A stretch of 20,842 nucleotides of DNA, from the IMG/VR virus record IMGVR_UViG_3300021962_000788, positions 1-20,842 of that record; one strand, 5' to 3'. Of this stretch, positions 337-8,809 are shown one piece after another. The DNA is from a virus. The notes under the pieces were generated by a model that saw only the letters and a list, made by a program, of their open reading frames with translations, made no database searches and had not been told where the DNA came from. Numbering within the stretch: position 1 is the first letter of the stretch; each line of letters begins with the position of its first letter. The position numbers were made by a program, and so were the translations under genes.

Positions 337-2088
337 ATGGCAACAGAAACATTAATTTCACCAGGTGTATTAACAACCGAAAACGACCAGTCCTTTTTAA
401 CAGCTGGCCCTGTATCAGTTGGTTTAGCATTAGTTGGTCCAACAGTTAAAGGACCAGTTAATATTCCAACTACAGTTACTTCATATTCTGAATTTAGAAA
501 TAAATTTGGAAGTTCTTTCTTATCATCATCAACAAACTATGAGTATTTAACATCAATGGCCGCCTACAATTATTTTCAACAAGGTGGTGATTCAATTTTA
601 GTTACTCGTGTTACTAGTGGTAGTTTTACAAGTGCTACAGCTACTGTTGGTGTTACAGGATCAACTCTTTCTAACTTTACTTCTAGTTTCACTTTAGCAA
701 CTATAGCTATGGGAAATATTATGAATAACTCAGGTAGCGCTATAGCTAATGGAGCTTTAGAATCTGGTTCTACAGAAAATGTTAGATGGGAAGTTCAAAA
801 TTCTAACGCTAGTCAAGGTACATTTACTTTAGTTGTTAGACAAGGTACTGATACAACTTTAACTCCAAGTGTTTTAGAAACATTTACTAATGTATCTTTA
901 GACCCATTAGCACCAAATTATATTGAAGCTGTTGTTGGTAACCAATATAGAACAGTTGAATATGATGCTTCTGTTGGTGGATATTATATAAAAATAAATG
1001 GTGATTATACTAACAAAAGTAATTATGTTTATATAAGTGCTGTAAACAGACCAACTCCTGGATACTTCCAAAATGATGGAACTCCTTATGGTCCTTACAC
1101 ATCATCAGTTGTTAATACAGCTTACTTACCAGCTAATGGATCTGGTTCATATTTTGGTTCATTTAATGGTGGTGTTGGTAAAAACCCAATAGATGGAACT
1201 ACTATGTTTTCTGGTATTTCAACAATAACTCAAGGTTTTACAGCTGGTTTTTATTACACAGCTAGTTCTATTTTAAATAATAAAGATCAATACGCATTTA
1301 ATTTAATTACAACTCCAGGTTTAGTAAATAGTGTTCACTCATCTACTACAGCTGCTTTTATGACATTAGCTGAAGAAAGAGGTGATTGTTTTTATATACT
1401 TGACTTAGCTCCATACAATTCTACAATTGGAACTATAACTGCTCAAGCATTAGGTGAAGATAGTTCATATGCTGGATCTTATTGGCCATGGGTTCAAATG
1501 GTATCAAATGAAACTGGTAAATTAGTTTGGGCTCCAGCTTCAACAGCTATGGCTGGTGTGTATGCATTTAATGATAAAGTAGCAGCTGAATGGTTTGCTC
1601 CAGCAGGTTTAAATAGAGGTGGTTTAGGTGGTGTAATTCAGGCTGAAAGAAAATTATCTCCAACAGATCGTGATACATTATATGCTTCTAAAGTTAATCC
1701 AATTGCAACATTCCCAGGAGTAGGAGTTGTAGCTTATGGTCAGAAAACATTACAACAAAAAGCTTCAGCTCTTGATCGTATTAATGTTCGTAGATTATTA
1801 ATTAATTTAAAGAATTTTATTGGTGGAGTAGCTAATACAATTGTGTTTGAACAAAATACAACTGTTACAAGAAATAATTTCTTAGCTAGAGTTAATCCAT
1901 ACTTAGAATCTGTACAACAAAGACAAGGTTTATATGCCTTTAAAGTAGTAATGGATGAATCAAATAACACCCCAGATGTAATTGATAGAAATCAATTAAT
2001 TGGTCAAATTTATATCCAACCAACAAAAACAGTTGAATTTGTATTATTGAGTTTCAATATTACTCCAACTGGTGCGAGCTTCTCTTAA
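337..2088 (+). CDS. 18: Contractile tail sheath protein (T4 gp18-like)
   Basis: This protein forms the contractile outer sheath around the tail tube; contraction drives the tube into the host envelope. The 583 residues are somewhat shorter than T4 gp18. The N-terminus has the family signature: ISPGVLTTENDQS near residues 7-19, followed by a VGPTVKGPVN segment and a SYSEFRNKFG segment. The C-terminal domain (about 450-583) holds the conserved sheath core, with PGVGVVAYGQKT, INVRRLLINLKN, a GGVANTIVFEQN stretch beginning at residue 496, and a final beta strand ending VLLSFNITPTG. The central Gly/Ser/Thr-rich region is the variable, surface-exposed insertion typical of sheaths. It is followed 29 bases later by the tail tube gene, the usual sheath-tube order. 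The start ATG has an A-rich leader and no Shine-Dalgarno sequence. Confidence 0.96.
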   Translation: MATETLISPGVLTTENDQSFLTAGPVSVGLALVGPTVKGPVNIPTTVTSYSEFRNKFGSSFLSSSTNYEYLTSMAAYNYFQQGGDSILVTRVTSGSFTSATATVGVTGSTLSNFTSSFTLATIAMGNIMNNSGSAIANGALESGSTENVRWEVQNSNASQGTFTLVVRQGTDTTLTPSVLETFTNVSLDPLAPNYIEAVVGNQYRTVEYDASVGGYYIKINGDYTNKSNYVYISAVNRPTPGYFQNDGTPYGPYTSSVVNTAYLPANGSGSYFGSFNGGVGKNPIDGTTMFSGISTITQGFTAGFYYTASSILNNKDQYAFNLITTPGLVNSVHSSTTAAFMTLAEERGDCFYILDLAPYNSTIGTITAQALGEDSSYAGSYWPWVQMVSNETGKLVWAPASTAMAGVYAFNDKVAAEWFAPAGLNRGGLGGVIQAERKLSPTDRDTLYASKVNPIATFPGVGVVAYGQKTLQQKASALDRINVRRLLINLKNFIGGVANTIVFEQNTTVTRNNFLARVNPYLESVQQRQGLYAFKVVMDESNNTPDVIDRNQLIGQIYIQPTKTVEFVLLSFNITPTGASFS

Positions 2089-2117: not shown

Positions 2118-2603
2118 ATGCCAGTATTAAACGCAAACGAAATCATGTTTACTGCTTTTGAACCAAAAGTTCAAAACAGATTTATTATGTATATTGCAGG
2201 TGTTCCTGCCTATTTAATTAAAAAAGTAACAGCTCCTAACTTTGAAGCTGGTGAAGTAGTATTAGATCATATTAATGTTTACCGTAAAGTTAAGGGTAAA
2301 GTTAGATGGGGTGATATGCAGATTGAATTATATGATCCTGTAACACCATCTGGTGCTCAAGCTGTGATGGAATGGGCTCGTTTAGCTCATGAATCAGTAA
2401 CAGGACGTGATGGTTACTCTGATTTTTATAAAAAAGACTTACGTTTTGATGTTTTAGGTCCAGTTGGTGATGTAGTAGGTGAATGGATTATCAAAGGTGC
2501 TTATGTTAAAACAGCTGCTTTTGGTGATTATGATTGGTCTCAAGACTCATACATTAACTTATCTATTACTGTAGCTATGGATTATTGCATATTGAACTAC
2601 TAA
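2118..2603 (+). CDS. 19: Tail tube protein (T4 gp19-like)
   Basis: Subunit of the inner tail tube, through which DNA passes and around which the sheath assembles. At 161 residues it is almost exactly the length of T4 gp19. It has the usual family pattern: an N-terminal FEPKVQNRFIMYI strand (14-26), a central KVKGKVRWGDMQIELYDP segment, a helix around AVMEWARLAHE, and a C-terminal strand pair ending in SINLS-like residues and VAMDYC. It directly follows the sheath gene and is followed by a strong hairpin terminator. Four of its six Arg codons are CGT, whereas most structural genes here use AGA, as expected for a highly expressed gene. I am confident of the family and role. Confidence 0.94.
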   Translation: MPVLNANEIMFTAFEPKVQNRFIMYIAGVPAYLIKKVTAPNFEAGEVVLDHINVYRKVKGKVRWGDMQIELYDPVTPSGAQAVMEWARLAHESVTGRDGYSDFYKKDLRFDVLGPVGDVVGEWIIKGAYVKTAAFGDYDWSQDSYINLSITVAMDYCILNY

Positions 2604-2625
2604 TAAAAAGTTTAATATTTTTAAG

Positions 2626-2651
2626 AAGGCTCGGGAAACCGAGCCTTTTTT
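2626..2651 (+). terminator. Rho-independent terminator after the tail tube gene
   Basis: A perfect 9-bp GC-rich stem, AAGGCTCGG paired with CCGAGCCTT, closed by a GAAA tetraloop and followed by a T run. It is 22 bases after the tube stop codon. This is the strongest hairpin in the window and ends the sheath-tube unit. Confidence 0.93.
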
Positions 2652-2667: not shown

Positions 2668-2955
2668 ATGCCAACAATAGTATCTGAAAGTATACAAATT
2701 GACTCTACTATTTATGATGAGTACAAAGAACAATTTGCCACTCCTTATTTTTCAGGAAGTGAATTAGCATTTTTACAAGTATTTTACAGTATTCCTTTTT
2801 ATGAAAGACATAGATCTAACACTGTAGAATTATTTCCTCAAATTAGAGAAAACTCAGGAGTTGGAAGATATTGGGAAATTTCAAATGAATTTGCTCAAAA
2901 TGTAATATCATCTAGTTATGGTGTTGAAGTTTTTAATGCTTTTTGTGTTAAATAA
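2668..2955 (+). CDS. Hypothetical phage protein, 95 residues
   Basis: A small acidic to neutral protein without signal peptide, membrane helix or cysteine cluster; one Cys lies near the C-terminus. It contains an aromatic-rich middle (AFLQVFYSIPFYERHR, about 34-49) and ends VEVFNAFCVK. It is isolated between a strong terminator and the tail fibre gene, with its own TATTTATA box, so it is probably expressed late as a separate or first gene of the fibre unit. Its start, MPTI with an ATAACC leader, matches the leader type of the tube gene and of the gene at 11447. I do not recognise the family. A minor virion or fibre-assembly role is possible from position only. Confidence 0.7.
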   Translation: MPTIVSESIQIDSTIYDEYKEQFATPYFSGSELAFLQVFYSIPFYERHRSNTVELFPQIRENSGVGRYWEISNEFAQNVISSSYGVEVFNAFCVK

Positions 2956-2973
2956 TAAGTTAAGATATAATTA

Positions 2974-2981
2974 TATAAAGA
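2974..2981 (+). promoter_or_regulatory. Possible weak late promoter element of the tail fibre gene
   Basis: TATAAAGA differs by one base from TATAAATA and lies 9 bases before the fibre ATG. The surrounding TTATATAAA and AATAAA resemble the leader of the first gene in the window. It is a tentative call in very AT-rich DNA. Confidence 0.25.
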
Positions 2982-2990
2982 AAGAATAAA

Positions 2991-5900
2991 ATGTCTCAAA
3001 AAACTAAACAACAAATACAATCAGAAGCTTCAACTTTTATTGAAAACAATATAAATAGAGCTATTACAGCTGCTGATGTTAGGCAACGTGTGATAGATTT
3101 AGCTGACAGTACAGTATTTACAACAGGCTCATCATTAGTTACAGGATCTATTACAGTATCTGGATCTATTATAATAACTGGATCTTTAATTATAACAGGT
3201 TCAAATACATTAATAGCCTCAACTCCAGCTGAATTTTCAAGTATTATTAGACAGGGTGTTGATATAGGTGTATCAGGAAGTCCAGCTTATAATGTCACTG
3301 CTTCTGGTTTAGTTTCATTTGCTAGAGGTTTAAATGCTACTGCTTCAGGTGATTATTCTTTTGCTAATGGTGATAGTGTTTTAGCTAGTGGATCTTTCTC
3401 AATAGCTGAAGGATTAAAAACTACAGCTAGAGGTCCTTATTCTCACACTGAAGGATCAGGATCAATAATATTACCTAATTCTATAGGTTCCCATGCTGAA
3501 GGATTTAGAAATACAATATCAGCTAGTTATGCTCATGCTGAAGGTTATATTAATACAGCTTATGGTGATTGGTCTCATGCTGAAGGTTTAATAAGTGTAA
3601 CTTGGGGAAGATTTTGTCATGTTGAAGGTGATGATAATGAGGCTGGTGATTCATCTCTTATTAATAACGCTAAATTTGGAAGCCATGCTCATGCTGAAGG
3701 TTGTTATAATTTTATAGAGGGTTATGGTTCACATGGTGAAGGTAATAGTAACTTTATAGTAAATACTTTAAGTGGAGGTGGAGTAGATTATTATAGTGAA
3801 GGAGGTTGGTCTCACATTGAAGGATATAATAATTATGTAAAGGGAGTTTGGTCTCATGCTGAAGGATCAAATAATGAAATAACAGATTACACTAGATATT
3901 CTCATGTTGAAGGAGTATCAAATACAATAATTTATAGTAATTATACCCATATTGAAGGAGGTTATAATTCTGTATATAATTCTTATGGAGCTCATATTGA
4001 AGGATATAAAAATTCAATAAGTTATGGTTTTCAAGTTAGTGGTTTAACTTTATCTTATAACCATAGTGAAGGTGCTTATAATACTATACATTATAGTGCT
4101 TTTTCCCATATTGAAGGAGGTAGCAATTCAATATTAAACTCAATATATGGTCATGCTGAAGGAGCAGGTAATACTATTGGTGGAACATTTGTTTATACAA
4201 CTGGTAGTCATGTTGAAGGGTTTAAAAACACAGTATTAGGTAATTATGCTCATGCTGAAGGTTCTGGTTCTGTAGCTAGAGGTAATTTTTCATATGCTGC
4301 TGGTATAGGTACTATAGCTAGTGGAAGTGGTCAAAATGTAGTTGGTGCTTATAATACTATTTATACAGCTTCAAATGATTTATTTATAATAGGTAATGGT
4401 AGTTCTATTAACAATAGAGATACTTTAGCTAGATTTAATAAAACATTCACTGTGTTATCACAAAGTGTTTATATGCCTAATCTAACAGCCTCAGTACAAA
4501 ATTATGTTATTGGGTGGGACATTAATGATGGAGGTAAATTATACGTTCAACCAGTTGGAACTGCTACTGGTTCAGTAATTGTATATCAAACAAGTTCTGT
4601 AGTGAATGCTTCAACAACTAAATTTAACTTTACAGGATCAGGAGTTACAGTTACATTAAGTGGTAGTGATGGAGTATTAATAAACATTCCAGGTGGTGGA
4701 GGTGGATCTGGTACAGCTGGCACTTCAGGTAGTTCAGGTTCTTCTGGATCAAGTGGTACTAATGGTACAAGTGGTACTAATGGATCAAGTGGTACTAATG
4801 GATCAAGTGGCTCATCAGGTACATCTGGCTCAAGTGGAATAAGTGGATCATCTGGTTCATCAGGAACTAGTGGAAATTCAGGAACATCAGGATCATCAGG
4901 ATCATCAGGAACCAGTGGAAGTTCAGGAATATCTGGTACTAATGGTACATCAGGTACATCATTTAGTAATGTTTATGATGAAGGTACATTAGTTGAAACT
5001 GGAGTAAATAAAATAAATTTTGTAGGTAATGCTGTTAGTGCTTCTTTAAGTGGTTCAAATGGTGTTTTAGTTACAATTAATACAGGATCCTTTGTACCAA
5101 CTGATGATTGGCAAGATGTGACATCAAGAGACAACCATACATCATGTAGTTTAGATGTTAGTTTACCATCATTACAAGGTAATGCTAGAAATATAACAGG
5201 CTCATTTAGTAATGGTCCAACATTTACTCATGGTAGAGCCTTAACAGCATCAGCTATATTTTCTAATGTTCAAGGTTATAATAACTTAGTTGGATCATCA
5301 TCTCCATTTTTTGGAAATTATGCTCATGCTGAAGGTTATAATAATACAACTTATGGATTGTATTCACATGTTGAAGGTGAAAAAAATACAATATCATTTA
5401 CAGCTGATCTTATCCCAGATACAGCTTCTCACGCTGAAGGTTATAATAACATTATAATAGGTGGTAAATATAACCATATTGAAGGTGAAGAAAACACTAT
5501 AATAGGTAGAGCTTCTCACGTTGAAGGTTATTCAAATATAGTTAGTGGAAGTTATTCACATGCTGAAGGTAATAACAATGAAATTCGTAGACTTATTCCA
5601 GGTGCTGGATATGCTGCTGTTAACTATGCTCATGCTGAAGGTTCAGACAATATTGTTTCTGGAGATTATGCTCATGCTGAGGGTTCATCAAATACAGCTT
5701 CTGGTTCTTATTCTCATGTTGAAGGCAGAAATAATATAACTTATGGTTTATACTCACATGCTGAAGGTAAACTTAATATAACTTATGGTTTAGATTCACA
5801 TGCTGAAGGTGACGCAAATATAACTTATGGTGAACATTCTCATGCTGAAGGTTGTTTTAATATTACAAATGCTTATGGATCACATGTTGAAGGTAATGGA

Positions 5901-6704
5901 TCAACAACATTAACTCATGCTAGTTGGTCACACGCTGAAGGTAACTCCACAACAACTCAAGGTCGTTGGTCTCATACTGAAGGTGGTAGTACTTTAGCTA
6001 TAGGAGAAACATCACATGCTGAAGGATCAACAACAACAGCTATAGGCTCAGGTTCTCATGCTGAAGGAAGTGGTAATATAACATTTGGAGATTATTCACA
6101 TGCTGAAGGATTTTCCAATGTATCAACTGGATCTTATTCTCATACTGAAGGTTATTTTACAACCACTATTGGTATTAATTCACATGCTGAAGGACGTGAA
6201 ACAATTGCTTTTGGTGAAGGTTCTCATGCTGAAGGATATAGAACAACAGCTAGTGGAAGTTATTCTCACACTGAAGGTAATTGGACTGTAGCTAAAGGTG
6301 ATTATCAAACTATAGTAGGTAAATTTAATGCTACTAGTTCATTACTAAATAATGCTCAATTCATTGTTGGTAATGGTACAGCTAATAATGCTAGATCTAA
6401 TTCATTTGTAGTGACTGGAAGTCAAGTAGGTATTAACACAACTCCAGCTACTTCAATAGCATTACATGTTGATTCAACAGCAGGTGGATTTAGGATGCCA
6501 GTGATGACATATGCCCAAAAAATAGCTTTAATTAAACATCGTGGTTTAGAAGTTTATCAAACAGGAAGTGTGACACAAACATCTTTTATAACAAGAAAAC
6601 TAGGAGGATTAATATTCACTATTCCTATAACAACAACAATCCCAGAAGGACCTTATATGGTTCAACCATCAGGAAGTGCTGGTTTAGTATGGGTAGCCAA
6701 ATAA
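2991..6704 (+). CDS. Tail fibre / receptor-binding adhesin with SHAEG repeats and collagen-like linker
   Basis: A 1237-residue elongated protein, probably the trimeric receptor-binding fibre. Residues 1-45 are a helical attachment region (NINRAITAADVRQRVIDL), followed by a run of TGS-type short beta repeats to about 75. Residues about 150-424 carry 17 copies of an H-x-E-G motif (SHAEG, SHVEG and similar), then a cap containing LFIIGNG at 464. Residues 574-657 are 28 Gly-X-Y triplets without proline. Residues 777-1096 carry 22 more SHAEG motifs, many spaced 14 residues apart, then a second cap with FIVGNG at 1124. The C-terminus (GFRMPVMTYAQKIALI) resembles the terminal region of many Bacteroidota phage fibres. 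The repeats resemble heads of YadA-like trimeric autotransporter adhesins, so beta-helical trimers are likely. A glycosyltransferase follows 274 bases downstream. Exact fold and receptor are unknown. Confidence 0.88.
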   Translation: MSQKTKQQIQSEASTFIENNINRAITAADVRQRVIDLADSTVFTTGSSLVTGSITVSGSIIITGSLIITGSNTLIASTPAEFSSIIRQGVDIGVSGSPAYNVTASGLVSFARGLNATASGDYSFANGDSVLASGSFSIAEGLKTTARGPYSHTEGSGSIILPNSIGSHAEGFRNTISASYAHAEGYINTAYGDWSHAEGLISVTWGRFCHVEGDDNEAGDSSLINNAKFGSHAHAEGCYNFIEGYGSHGEGNSNFIVNTLSGGGVDYYSEGGWSHIEGYNNYVKGVWSHAEGSNNEITDYTRYSHVEGVSNTIIYSNYTHIEGGYNSVYNSYGAHIEGYKNSISYGFQVSGLTLSYNHSEGAYNTIHYSAFSHIEGGSNSILNSIYGHAEGAGNTIGGTFVYTTGSHVEGFKNTVLGNYAHAEGSGSVARGNFSYAAGIGTIASGSGQNVVGAYNTIYTASNDLFIIGNGSSINNRDTLARFNKTFTVLSQSVYMPNLTASVQNYVIGWDINDGGKLYVQPVGTATGSVIVYQTSSVVNASTTKFNFTGSGVTVTLSGSDGVLINIPGGGGGSGTAGTSGSSGSSGSSGTNGTSGTNGSSGTNGSSGSSGTSGSSGISGSSGSSGTSGNSGTSGSSGSSGTSGSSGISGTNGTSGTSFSNVYDEGTLVETGVNKINFVGNAVSASLSGSNGVLVTINTGSFVPTDDWQDVTSRDNHTSCSLDVSLPSLQGNARNITGSFSNGPTFTHGRALTASAIFSNVQGYNNLVGSSSPFFGNYAHAEGYNNTTYGLYSHVEGEKNTISFTADLIPDTASHAEGYNNIIIGGKYNHIEGEENTIIGRASHVEGYSNIVSGSYSHAEGNNNEIRRLIPGAGYAAVNYAHAEGSDNIVSGDYAHAEGSSNTASGSYSHVEGRNNITYGLYSHAEGKLNITYGLDSHAEGDANITYGEHSHAEGCFNITNAYGSHVEGNGSTTLTHASWSHAEGNSTTTQGRWSHTEGGSTLAIGETSHAEGSTTTAIGSGSHAEGSGNITFGDYSHAEGFSNVSTGSYSHTEGYFTTTIGINSHAEGRETIAFGEGSHAEGYRTTASGSYSHTEGNWTVAKGDYQTIVGKFNATSSLLNNAQFIVGNGTANNARSNSFVVTGSQVGINTTPATSIALHVDSTAGGFRMPVMTYAQKIALIKHRGLEVYQTGSVTQTSFITRKLGGLIFTIPITTTIPEGPYMVQPSGSAGLVWVAK
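3438..4262 (+). repeat. First SHAEG repeat block (17 copies) in the fibre
   Basis: Protein-level repeats with the core (Y/W/G)-(S/A)-H-(A/V/I/T)-E-G followed by a variable loop with Asn/Thr. Spacing varies, and one degenerate unit lacks the His (YYSEGG). At DNA level the core recurs as variants of TCTCATGCTGAAGG. The block is more divergent and more irregular than the second one. Confidence 0.85.
4710..4961 (+). repeat. Collagen-like Gly-X-Y tract, 28 triplets
   Basis: Exactly 252 bases encode 28 Gly-X-Y triplets such as GSS, GTS, GTN, GIS and GTA, with no proline. It separates the two SHAEG modules. Proline-free collagen-like tracts in phage fibres are thought to form triple-helical spacers. 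The very high Ser/Thr content makes it a plausible O-glycosylation target. The repeat is also a likely site of length variation by recombination or slippage. Confidence 0.9.
5319..6278 (+). repeat. Second SHAEG repeat block (22 copies) in the fibre
   Basis: There are 22 H-x-E-G motifs, many in strict 14-residue register (for example NITYG spacers between SHAEG cores around 5710-5860). The cleaner spacing suggests more recent expansion than in the first block. It is followed by a capping segment similar to the one after block one. Confidence 0.88.
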
Positions 6705-6722
6705 TTATAATAAAACAAAAAT

Positions 6723-6974
6723 ATGCCAGAAGAAAATGAAATATTAGCCGGTTCATCATTTGATGTTGAAACAGGTGTTCAAACAGTTTATGGTAGTGTA
6801 TTCTCATATGGAGATTTAGCTACATCAGGATCAGTAGTTATAACTCCTACAGGATCATTACCTTCCCCAGGTGATTCTTTAAACGGTCAAGTTATTAATC
6901 TACAATTATCTACAACAGGATCATTATATTTCTTTAATGGAATAACCTGGAAACAAGTAATGCTAGCCCCTTAA
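6723..6974 (+). CDS. Small fibre-associated structural protein (putative)
   Basis: An 83-residue protein rich in Gly, Ser and Thr, with TGS motifs (TSGSVVITPTGSLP, STTGSLYFFNG) like those in the N-terminal part of the fibre. The C-terminus, LYFFNGITWKQV, resembles the short beta motif (roughly LYxxNGxxWK) found at the end of many phage fibre and tail-tip proteins. It starts 18 bases after the fibre stop and ends 4 bases before the glycosyltransferase ATG, so the three genes look co-transcribed. It could be a fibre tip, adaptor or chaperone. The family is not certain; the role is inferred from composition and position. Confidence 0.7.
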   Translation: MPEENEILAGSSFDVETGVQTVYGSVFSYGDLATSGSVVITPTGSLPSPGDSLNGQVINLQLSTTGSLYFFNGITWKQVMLAP

Positions 6975-6978
6975 TATT

Positions 6979-8007
6979 ATGAAAACAAAAATTAGTTATG
7001 TAACAGAATTACCAGTTACAGTTGGAGGACCTTTAATTTATTTCTTCCCAGAATCTAAGGAAGAATTAACTCAAACTTACACAGTATCATTTTATGATAA
7101 TGAAAAATTAATTAGTAAAACAGAAATTTTACCTGATAAACCTTTAACAGGAAATAGACAATGGTTTACTGAATGGAAAATACTTATAAATGATCAAAAC
7201 GGAAATATAATTGATTATAGTGAATTTAACGCTAAAGATAAGGTTGTATTTATAAAGTGTGATTCTTGGGGAATAGGTGACACATTAGCTTGGATACCAT
7301 ATTTTGAAGAATTTAGAAAAAAACATGAATGTAAGTTAATAGTTTCTACTTTTTATAATGAGTTATTTATTAATGCTTATCAAGAAATAATGTTTGTAAA
7401 ACCAAATATTAAAATTTGGAATGTTTACTCTCAATATTATGTTGGTACTCAATCTGATATTAATACAATATATGCTCCTTCAAATCATTTAAATAAACCA
7501 TTACAAAAAGTAGCTACTGATATTTTAGGCTTAGAATATAAAGTAATTAGACCTAATATTGGTATGCCCGATTCTCCAAAACAAAAGAAAATTACATTAA
7601 GTGAATTTACTTCAGGTAAAGATAAAGATTGGGGTACAACAGAAGAATGGCAACAAATTGTAGATTTATTTGTTGAAAAAGGATATGAAGTAGTTGTTAT
7701 ATCAAAGGAACCAACTCAATTAAAAAATATAACAGATAAAACAGGTGATATATCTTTAGATCAAAGAGCCATAGAAATAGCCACTTCAGAATATCATATT
7801 GGATCTTCAACAGGATTATCATGGTTAGCATGGGCTTGTGACACAGAAGTATTTTTAATTTCTGACTTTACCCCTCCATATCATGAATTTCCATGTTATA
7901 GAATATTTAACATAGAAAATCCAGCTGAACAAGTTTTAAGTTCTAAATCAGAACATCCAACTTCTATAAATTATGTTATAGAAGAGATTAAAAAAGTGTT
8001 AAAATAA
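6979..8007 (+). CDS. Glycosyltransferase of the autotransporter heptosyltransferase (TibC/BAHT-like, GT9-type) family
   Basis: A 342-residue putative protein glycosyltransferase. Known TibC/Aah relatives transfer heptose from ADP-heptose to Ser residues of autotransporter adhesins. Residues 1-85 form a beta-rich N-terminal domain typical of the family (RQWFTEWKILIND at 60-72). The first Rossmann domain starts VVFIKCDSWGIGDTLAW, with the GIGD loop at 98-101, followed by IPYFEEF, HECKLIVSTF and FVKPN. The second domain has ITLSEFTSGKDKDWG (205-219) and the donor-site motif SSTGLSWLAWA (276-286), then ISDFTPPYHEFPCYRIFN. Only four Cys are present (94, 118, 287, 306), and the cysteine-rich iron-binding tail I expect in BAHT enzymes is missing. 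There is no signal peptide, so it acts in the cytoplasm. It lies in the fibre operon, 4 bases after the previous gene; modification of the fibre is the natural inference. The sugar donor is unknown. Confidence 0.85.
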   Translation: MKTKISYVTELPVTVGGPLIYFFPESKEELTQTYTVSFYDNEKLISKTEILPDKPLTGNRQWFTEWKILINDQNGNIIDYSEFNAKDKVVFIKCDSWGIGDTLAWIPYFEEFRKKHECKLIVSTFYNELFINAYQEIMFVKPNIKIWNVYSQYYVGTQSDINTIYAPSNHLNKPLQKVATDILGLEYKVIRPNIGMPDSPKQKKITLSEFTSGKDKDWGTTEEWQQIVDLFVEKGYEVVVISKEPTQLKNITDKTGDISLDQRAIEIATSEYHIGSSTGLSWLAWACDTEVFLISDFTPPYHEFPCYRIFNIENPAEQVLSSKSEHPTSINYVIEEIKKVLK

Positions 8008-8044: not shown

Positions 8045-8809
8045 ATGTCAGAAAATAAATTTAAGTTTCCAACAGAAGTTGTAGAACTTCCATCAAAAGG
8101 TTTACCTTATCCAGAATCATCTCCATTATCTAGTGGTAAAGTTGAAATGAAGTACATGTCTGCTCGTGAAGAAGACATTTTAACTAATATGAACTTTATC
8201 AGACAAGGTGTTGTAATTGATAAATTGTTACAGTCTATGATTGTATCAGAAATTGATTATAATGAATTATTAATTGGAGATAAAAATGCTTTATTAATTG
8301 CTTCACGTATTTTAGGTTATGGTAAAGATTATGACTTTGAAATAATGGATGATTACGGACAAAAAATTAGAACATCAGTTGATTTAACTAGTTTTGATTC
8401 TAAACCAGTTGATGAATCATTATTTTCAAAAGGTAAAAATGAATTCGCTTTAAATTTACCTATATCTAAAGTAACTATTACTTTTAAGTTATTAACTCAT
8501 GCTGATGAGAAAAAAATTGACCAAGAAATTAAAGGTTTAACTAAAGTTAATCCTAATGGTTCATATGATATAACAACACGTTTAAAACACACTATAACAT
8601 CTGTTAATGGTAGTAAAGAACAAGATGACATCAGAACGTTTGTAGATAATATGATGGTTAAAGACGCGCGTTTCTTACGTGAATATATAGCTAAAATCAC
8701 TCCTGATCTAGATTTAAATTTTAGTTATATAGATTCAAAAGGTGGTGTTGTGGAGGGCATCACATTACCTATGGGTACTAGCTTTTTTTGGCCTGACTCC
8801 GGAGTATAA
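8045..8809 (+). CDS. T4 gp26-like baseplate hub / tail assembly protein
   Basis: A 254-residue protein of the T4 baseplate-protein family, which I associate with gp26 (the number is from memory). Conserved blocks are VELPSKGLPYP (13-23), MSAREEDILT (38-47) and LLIGDKNALLIASRILGYG (75-93). The last part, ITLPMGTSFFWPDSGV, keeps the FFWPD ending I recall from such proteins. There is no transmembrane segment. In this phage it lies directly upstream of the tape measure, the position of tail assembly chaperones in long-tailed phages. A run of seven T at 8783-8789, near its end, overlaps a second open frame, so a fraction of ribosomes may shift and make a longer product of about 334 residues. It could act in hub assembly or as a chaperone for the tape measure. 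The family is fairly sure, the precise role less so. Confidence 0.8.
   Translation: MSENKFKFPTEVVELPSKGLPYPESSPLSSGKVEMKYMSAREEDILTNMNFIRQGVVIDKLLQSMIVSEIDYNELLIGDKNALLIASRILGYGKDYDFEIMDDYGQKIRTSVDLTSFDSKPVDESLFSKGKNEFALNLPISKVTITFKLLTHADEKKIDQEIKGLTKVNPNGSYDITTRLKHTITSVNGSKEQDDIRTFVDNMMVKDARFLREYIAKITPDLDLNFSYIDSKGGVVEGITLPMGTSFFWPDSGV
8783..8789 (+). other. Candidate programmed ribosomal frameshift site (T7 run)
   Basis: Seven T (AGC TTT TTT TGG in the upstream frame) lie eight codons before the stop of the gp26-like gene. A +1 or -2 shift here enters the frame GGC CTG ACT CCG GAG TAT, which stays open to 9050. The shifted frame gives sensible coding residues (GLTPEYKAVYMTEVHDLVYH) upstream of the first ATG. 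Lambda G/GT (-1) and Mu (-2) use comparable shifts just before the tape measure gene. Not proven. Confidence 0.45.

Follow-up and report, generated by a model that had tools for sequence, protein, structure and literature searches.

Enzymes of the TibC type have been described from pathogens, in which they modify autotransporters, and as iron-dependent 12-mers. In TibC, four iron-finger cysteines (339, 342, 358 and 370) and a beta-hairpin thumb hold the dodecamer together; heptosylation of TibA was lost in all four mutants of these cysteines, and the thumb-tip change F265D/V266D also failed (PMC4358343). Alanine in place of D110, K230, R286 or W305 abolished or largely reduced the activity of TibC, the P300 position, which is Ser in AAH, governs the choice between D,D- and L,D-heptose, and the targets of TibC are Ser, not Thr, residues (PMC4358343). 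Another precedent comes from mycobacteriophages, which, in the passage of PMC12619734 that cites Freeman et al. (2023), glycosylate capsid and tail tube subunits; the likeness to the locus studied here would lie in a phage modifying its own virion proteins, and the difference in that the subunits named in that passage are not fibres. Our literature search found no paper on TibC-type enzymes in phages.

The window analyzed here, the whole of a 20,842-base IMG/VR virus sequence from an uncultured aquatic phage, carries a tail cluster of myovirus type according to profile matches, and in this cluster a fibre gene is followed by the gene of a TibC/AAH-type (BAHT; TIGR04414) enzyme (Table 1). The isolates with the most similar sheath are Flavobacterium phage immuto (55%) and, after it, Microcystis phage Mel-JY01 (49%). 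An earlier note on this DNA had described a 39-repeat SHAEG fibre, a small fibre-like protein and a TibC-type enzyme starting 4 bases further on, and had proposed that the phage sugar-coats its own fibre. The ORF positions, the small protein and the 4-base gap between the 83-aa ORF and the glycosyltransferase ORF proved to be as it had stated, and the enzyme does contain the motifs GIGD (98-101), KDKDWG (214-219) and SSTGLSWLAWA (276-286). A hairpin scan from 2623 gave no further terminator-like site up to 8100 after the one that follows the tail tube gene; thus, 2668-8007 may be a single transcription unit, which is only suggestive.

Table 1. Features of the tail gene cluster in the window (positions in bases of the window).
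Feature	Position	Strand	Match or remark
Sheath	337-2088		
Tail tube	2118-2603		
Terminator-like hairpin 3' of the tail tube gene	2623..2650	+	1 found vs 1.7 expected in shuffles
95-aa protein, weakly matching a tail assembly chaperone family	2668..2955	+	phrog_3914 E=0.018
Tail-fibre-like protein, 1237 aa, SHAEG (YadA-head-like) repeats	2991..6704	+	phrog_25468 E=2.4e-68; tail fibre families; YadA 1p9h E=2.9e-4
SHAEG repeat block 1, 17 motifs, residues about 150-424	3438..4262	+	
Collagen-like Gly-X-Y stretch, Ser/Thr-rich, residues about 568-655	4692..4955	+	hypervariable among relatives
SHAEG repeat block 2, 22 motifs, residues about 777-1096	5319..6278	+	predicted beta-solenoid
Small fibre-like protein, 83 aa	6723..6974	+	close relatives only
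Compact TibC/AAH-type (BAHT-like) glycosyltransferase, 342 aa	6979..8007	+	iron finger absent, thumb shorter than in TibC
N-terminal beta domain of the enzyme, counterpart of the TibC beta-barrel	6979..7236	+	model 1-342 aligns to TibC 22-388
Baseplate-hub-like gene, downstream of the enzyme	8045-8809		

Several observations concern the flanks of this cluster. The near-identical phage L003 has a second BAHT-type gene, with an iron finger (L003:1-327), upstream of its sheath operon and immediately 5' of the part that corresponds to the window. In the window, bases 2-28 (of 1-28) read QVLIYINNK* and resemble the end of that gene, SQVINSINKLLCL*; judging from these letters, the window may start inside the last codons of a similar second BAHT-type gene. 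The corresponding place 5' of the sheath operon is occupied by an FkbM-type methyltransferase gene in two relatives with a compact enzyme (L005:1850-3076 and L006:1850-3076), and a GH130-type identity considered for the upstream protein of L005 (868-1857) was without Pfam support. In L024, a TnpB-like ORF (L024:7530-8684), identified by eye, stands between genes of the otherwise conserved compact-enzyme operon.

The fibre bears 39 xHxEG motifs by our count, in agreement with the earlier note, and these are spaced mostly by 14 residues and arranged in two blocks. Between the blocks lies a Gly-X-Y stretch, about 88 residues long, in which every third residue is Gly. This arrangement is far above chance, and homologues have it as well. 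The protein belongs to the phage family phrog_25468 and resembles the heads of YadA-type trimeric adhesins in its 14-residue SHAEG-like repeats; the similarity found by phmmer to YadA is remote, and the score against Pfam YadA_head is 16.8 bits, under the cut-off of 25. For the C-terminal part, AF2 run on one chain predicted a beta-solenoid in the repeat region (pLDDT about 90 there, mean 70). Foldseek returned no significant PDB match for the fibre model, and fold alignments to beta-helix proteins with Z of about 12 or less were given no weight as evidence of kinship. The SHAEG spike of Flavobacterium phage immuto is similar to the window fibre and differs in having no annotated glycosyltransferase beside it, and immuto gave no tblastn match to the enzyme.

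The Ser/Thr/Gly linker of the earlier note exists, but it is a collagen-like Gly-X-Y stretch (Pfam Collagen, E=3.7e-9) and is not conserved. The stretch is different in the near-identical phage L003, and enzymes of 79% identity (L005 and L006) adjoin GIQ/GPQ-type collagen instead, which led us to reject it as a general conserved acceptor. If a single conserved target exists, the SHAEG repeats are likelier, because the collagen-like stretch varies beside almost the same enzyme. In addition, an enrichment of Ser in glycosyltransferase-associated fibres was sought and rejected: these fibres contain slightly less Ser and more Thr and Asn (uncorrected for phylogeny), and the repeats of phage fibres with and without an associated glycosyltransferase are nearly alike, with no special Ser signature in the former. 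The 83-aa protein is confined to close relatives and does not occur in other lineages; it was discarded as a conserved third partner, since the small ORFs at the same place in other lineages look unrelated.

Searches with the enzyme identified TibC as the top PDB sequence match (4rap, phmmer E=1.4e-19) and NCBIfam TIGR04414 as the top family (E=1.6e-45). The match to TIGR04414 spans profile positions 49-325 of 374 and reaches 155.7 bits, which is below the curated cut-off of 200; the C-terminal end of the profile, the place of the iron finger, is unmatched. GT9 models were under their cut-offs too (PF01075 Glyco_transf_9, 20.3 of 22 bits; TIGR02193, 25.2 of 185.3 bits, E 8.5e-6). The AF2 model of the enzyme (pLDDT 89.3) contains both the GT-B catalytic domain and the N-terminal beta-barrel, and aligns to TibC with a Z of 34.0 at 2.2 A over 327 of 342 residues, the next matches being the GT9 entry 3tov (Z 19.0) and WaaC (Z 17.9). 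The GT-B core fold is shared with WaaC and WaaF (GT9), for which the acceptor is the LPS core; their Z is about 18 and the WaaC alignment begins at residue 88 of the enzyme, leaving the N-terminal beta domain outside. A structure prediction against TibC had been suggested as a check, and its outcome, together with phmmer, TIGR04414 and the tree, supports an enzyme of TibC/AAH type rather than an LPS heptosyltransferase.

The residues D101, S212, K216, R263, S277 and W282 of the enzyme correspond to TibC D110, T226, K230, R286, P300 and W305. All active-site positions tested are kept, with Ser in place of T226, as in at least 25 of the 48 bacterial clusters, and Ser in place of P300, which gives the enzyme the residue of AAH at the stereoselectivity position. 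The dN/dS of 0.13-0.27 shows that the enzyme is under purifying selection. With TibC and AAH it thus has in common the whole-chain fold including the N-terminal beta domain, the active-site positions, and a gene near a surface fibre or adhesin of repetitive beta architecture. It is unlike them in being phage-borne, in having a phage fibre instead of an autotransporter as neighbour, and in that its donor and acceptor are putative.

A further difference, which escaped the earlier note, is that the four-Cys iron finger is absent and that the thumb segment has 17 residues, compared with 26 in TibC. Both properties were found in every one of the 28 viral clusters (at 90% identity) that make up the compact set, whereas the iron finger is kept in 44 of 48 bacterial clusters and a 26-residue thumb segment in 41 of them; the missing modules are therefore no assembly fault. 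The compact enzymes formed one clade in a quick tree (SH-aLRT 100), and the loss marks a monophyletic, phage-borne compact lineage. The signature DSKRSW occurs in 27 of its 28 clusters and is also the commonest bacterial signature (25/48). Two sequences from short contigs in bacterial bins, L088 and L089, join the compact clade, that of L088 lying among phage-like genes. L089 is a contig of a Bacteroidia MAG; its compact BAHT-like gene (L089:2213-3298) has no iron finger, lies near a radical-SAM-like gene, recognized by eye, with no adjoining fibre, and is possibly a bacterial sister of the phage lineage.

The mechanism of TibC is not simply transferable to this enzyme, because it lacks two modules without which, in experiments, TibC neither assembles nor works properly (PMC4358343). 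With the iron finger gone and the thumb shortened, the window enzyme is expected not to form the TibC 12-mer. We did not class the enzyme as a BAHT member, because the tests showed that its iron finger is absent, its thumb short and its score under the cut-off of the family model; it is a derived BAHT variant of compact form and probably works like the members.

We surveyed the neighbourhoods of the relatives as well. Patterns from the enzyme alignment matched at least 519 places in viral contigs, and at least 484 of these encode relatives, which gives the breadth of the TibC type in these contigs. When a SHAEG fibre was counted as five or more motifs within 3 kb, 13 of 28 compact clusters had one, vs 1 of 54 iron-finger phage clusters and none of 48 bacterial clusters. 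This association is not random (Fisher 9e-7 against the phage and 2e-7 against the bacterial clusters, with cluster counts that are not phylogenetically independent and four changes on the tree). In most of the SHAEG-adjacent loci, the compact enzyme is located beside the fibre or one to two genes off. The remaining 15 compact clusters have no such fibre, one of them, L295, having a cut-off one. In the quick tree, the SHAEG-adjacent members fall in two subclades, and between these stand members with a thioredoxin/LRR/RNase-H-like context; most of the records searched for the latter members, which are possibly fragments, contained no SHAEG fibre at all. In the reverse direction, the surroundings (about 6 kb) of 80 sampled SHAEG loci contained a compact enzyme only in L003, L215 and L217, and an iron-finger enzyme in L242. 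The adjacency that the earlier note had proposed to survey is found in part of the lineage, but about half of the compact homologues lie elsewhere and most of the sampled SHAEG fibres have no BAHT nearby. "Self-contained adhesin-plus-modifier pair" is too strong a description. In the neighbourhoods that we examined by eye and, for selected genes, with Pfam, the homologues did not lie mostly beside surface-polysaccharide genes, and those of the compact enzymes showed no surface-polysaccharide cluster.

Iron-finger phage homologues, such as those of Microcystis phage Mel-JY01 (WWT39291.1) and BFVD A0A6J5SVC1 ("Glycosyltransferase Aah/TibC"), resemble the window enzyme in placing a BAHT catalytic domain in a phage, often near fibre-like genes. 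They differ in that the finger is kept in those examined, in that they are mostly long proteins, and in that collagen-like proteins rather than SHAEG fibres are their neighbours. Ser/Thr/Asn-rich collagen-like proteins were found near at least 18 of the 54 clusters, a lower bound because the strict S/T/N pattern missed the stretch of L003. The Mel-JY01 protein (L007:4747-8430) is annotated as "methyltransferase FkbM"; the third of the chain nearest the C-terminus forms an iron-finger BAHT domain (TIGR04414, 317 bits), the N-terminal part is GT4-like, and SSGTSG collagen-like ORFs stand on either side of the gene. Homologues such as L032, L046 and L055 have another residue in place of the Arg that contacts ADP in TibC, and the signature DTKVGW is found in 15 of 54 clusters, which suggests from sequence another nucleotide-sugar donor for enzymes of this kind.

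No donor-sugar gene was recognized within the window, and searches with TIGR02199 and TIGR00441 found no ADP-heptose gene in the compact-enzyme phage records searched; a partial TIGR02199 match beside nucleotide-sugar genes in G020 was not decisive. The 636-kb phage LR756504.1 encodes a GmhA homologue of the heptose pathway (L344:4084-4653, 251.5 bits, over the cut-off), seen only there, and an iron-finger BAHT about 27 kb from it. Second enzymes occur near or within some homologues: the order is SHAEG fibre, GT4, compact enzyme in L276, where the intervening gene is glycosyltransferase-like, and cut-off SHAEG protein, DUF2827, compact enzyme in L295, while the iron-finger homologues L007 and L008 have a GT4-like region within the same chain. 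This fits, without proving, a glycan of more than one sugar in some phages.

On balance, we consider it somewhat more likely than not that the compact, iron-finger-less TibC/AAH (BAHT) relative glycosylates a tail fibre of the virion, most likely the adjacent SHAEG fibre. A role on a virion protein is the most likely one because of the adjacency, the purifying selection and the kept active-site positions. We infer the activity, donor, acceptor, timing and benefit of the enzyme as follows. During virion assembly, an enzyme species smaller than a 12-mer would act on the fibre, or on its chains as they fold, and transfer sugar from an ADP-activated host donor, probably a heptose, to Ser and perhaps also Thr side chains, most likely of the adjacent SHAEG beta-solenoid fibre, and the phage might gain in receptor binding, stability or protection. 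The proposal that the phage sugar-coats its own fibre is partly supported: it is favoured by the TibC-type enzyme and by the link of its lineage to SHAEG fibres, and weakened by the loss or shortening of two TibC modules, by the many compact enzymes and SHAEG fibres that occur apart, by the unconserved stretch and by the lack of Ser enrichment. A wider statement would be that TibC-type glycosylation of virion fibres is widespread, and that a phage-borne, iron-free, non-dodecameric BAHT offshoot, forming one branch of it, attaches O-linked sugars to trimeric SHAEG fibres; this is tentative, and we lean slightly against it as a whole.

The enzyme could also be a protein glycosyltransferase with another acceptor, a different virion or host protein, and would then stand beside the fibre because its gene was inserted where the tail region is variable. 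The signature is unchanged in compact homologues that have no SHAEG neighbour and lie in non-structural contexts, BAHT is absent near most sampled SHAEG fibres, and fibre repeats look much the same with and without the enzyme; we nevertheless regard this as unlikely, in view of an association that is strong, recurs in two subclades and mostly places the enzyme within one or two genes of the fibre. Glycosyltransferases near pelagimyophage tail fibres have been interpreted as host-surface modifiers (PMC7029224), and the distant GT9 homology of our enzyme would suit a protein that changes the LPS or a different surface glycan of the host, for instance as a barrier to superinfection. Its sequence and fold, however, are much nearer to protein-modifying TibC than to WaaC/WaaF, the TibC-like N-terminal beta domain is uncovered by the WaaC alignment, and surface-polysaccharide clusters were missing from the compact neighbourhoods inspected; because the fold is TibC-type, such a role is improbable. 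Little probability is likewise left for a different donor or activity, that is, another ADP- or NDP-sugar, or a transfer-dead protein serving as fibre chaperone. It would agree with the loss or shortening of two modules needed in TibC (PMC4358343) and with the lack of heptose pathway genes in the compact-enzyme records searched, but the active-site positions kept in 27 of 28 clusters and the purifying selection argue against lost activity, and the ADP-contacting Arg is kept here while it is lost in many iron-finger phage homologues.

Glycosylation of a tail fibre by the compact enzyme, if it takes place, would have consequences for both the enzyme family and the phages. If the compact enzymes are active, the iron finger and the full thumb would not be intrinsic to BAHT chemistry. 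The same type of fibre adjoins the enzyme in roughly half (13/28) of the known members of this phage-borne lineage, which suggests a coating of fibres with sugar by some of the phages that encode them. If these fibres are modified, the receptor-binding proteins of many aquatic phages would be glycoproteins, which would bear on adsorption, on stability and on the prediction of host range from sequence.
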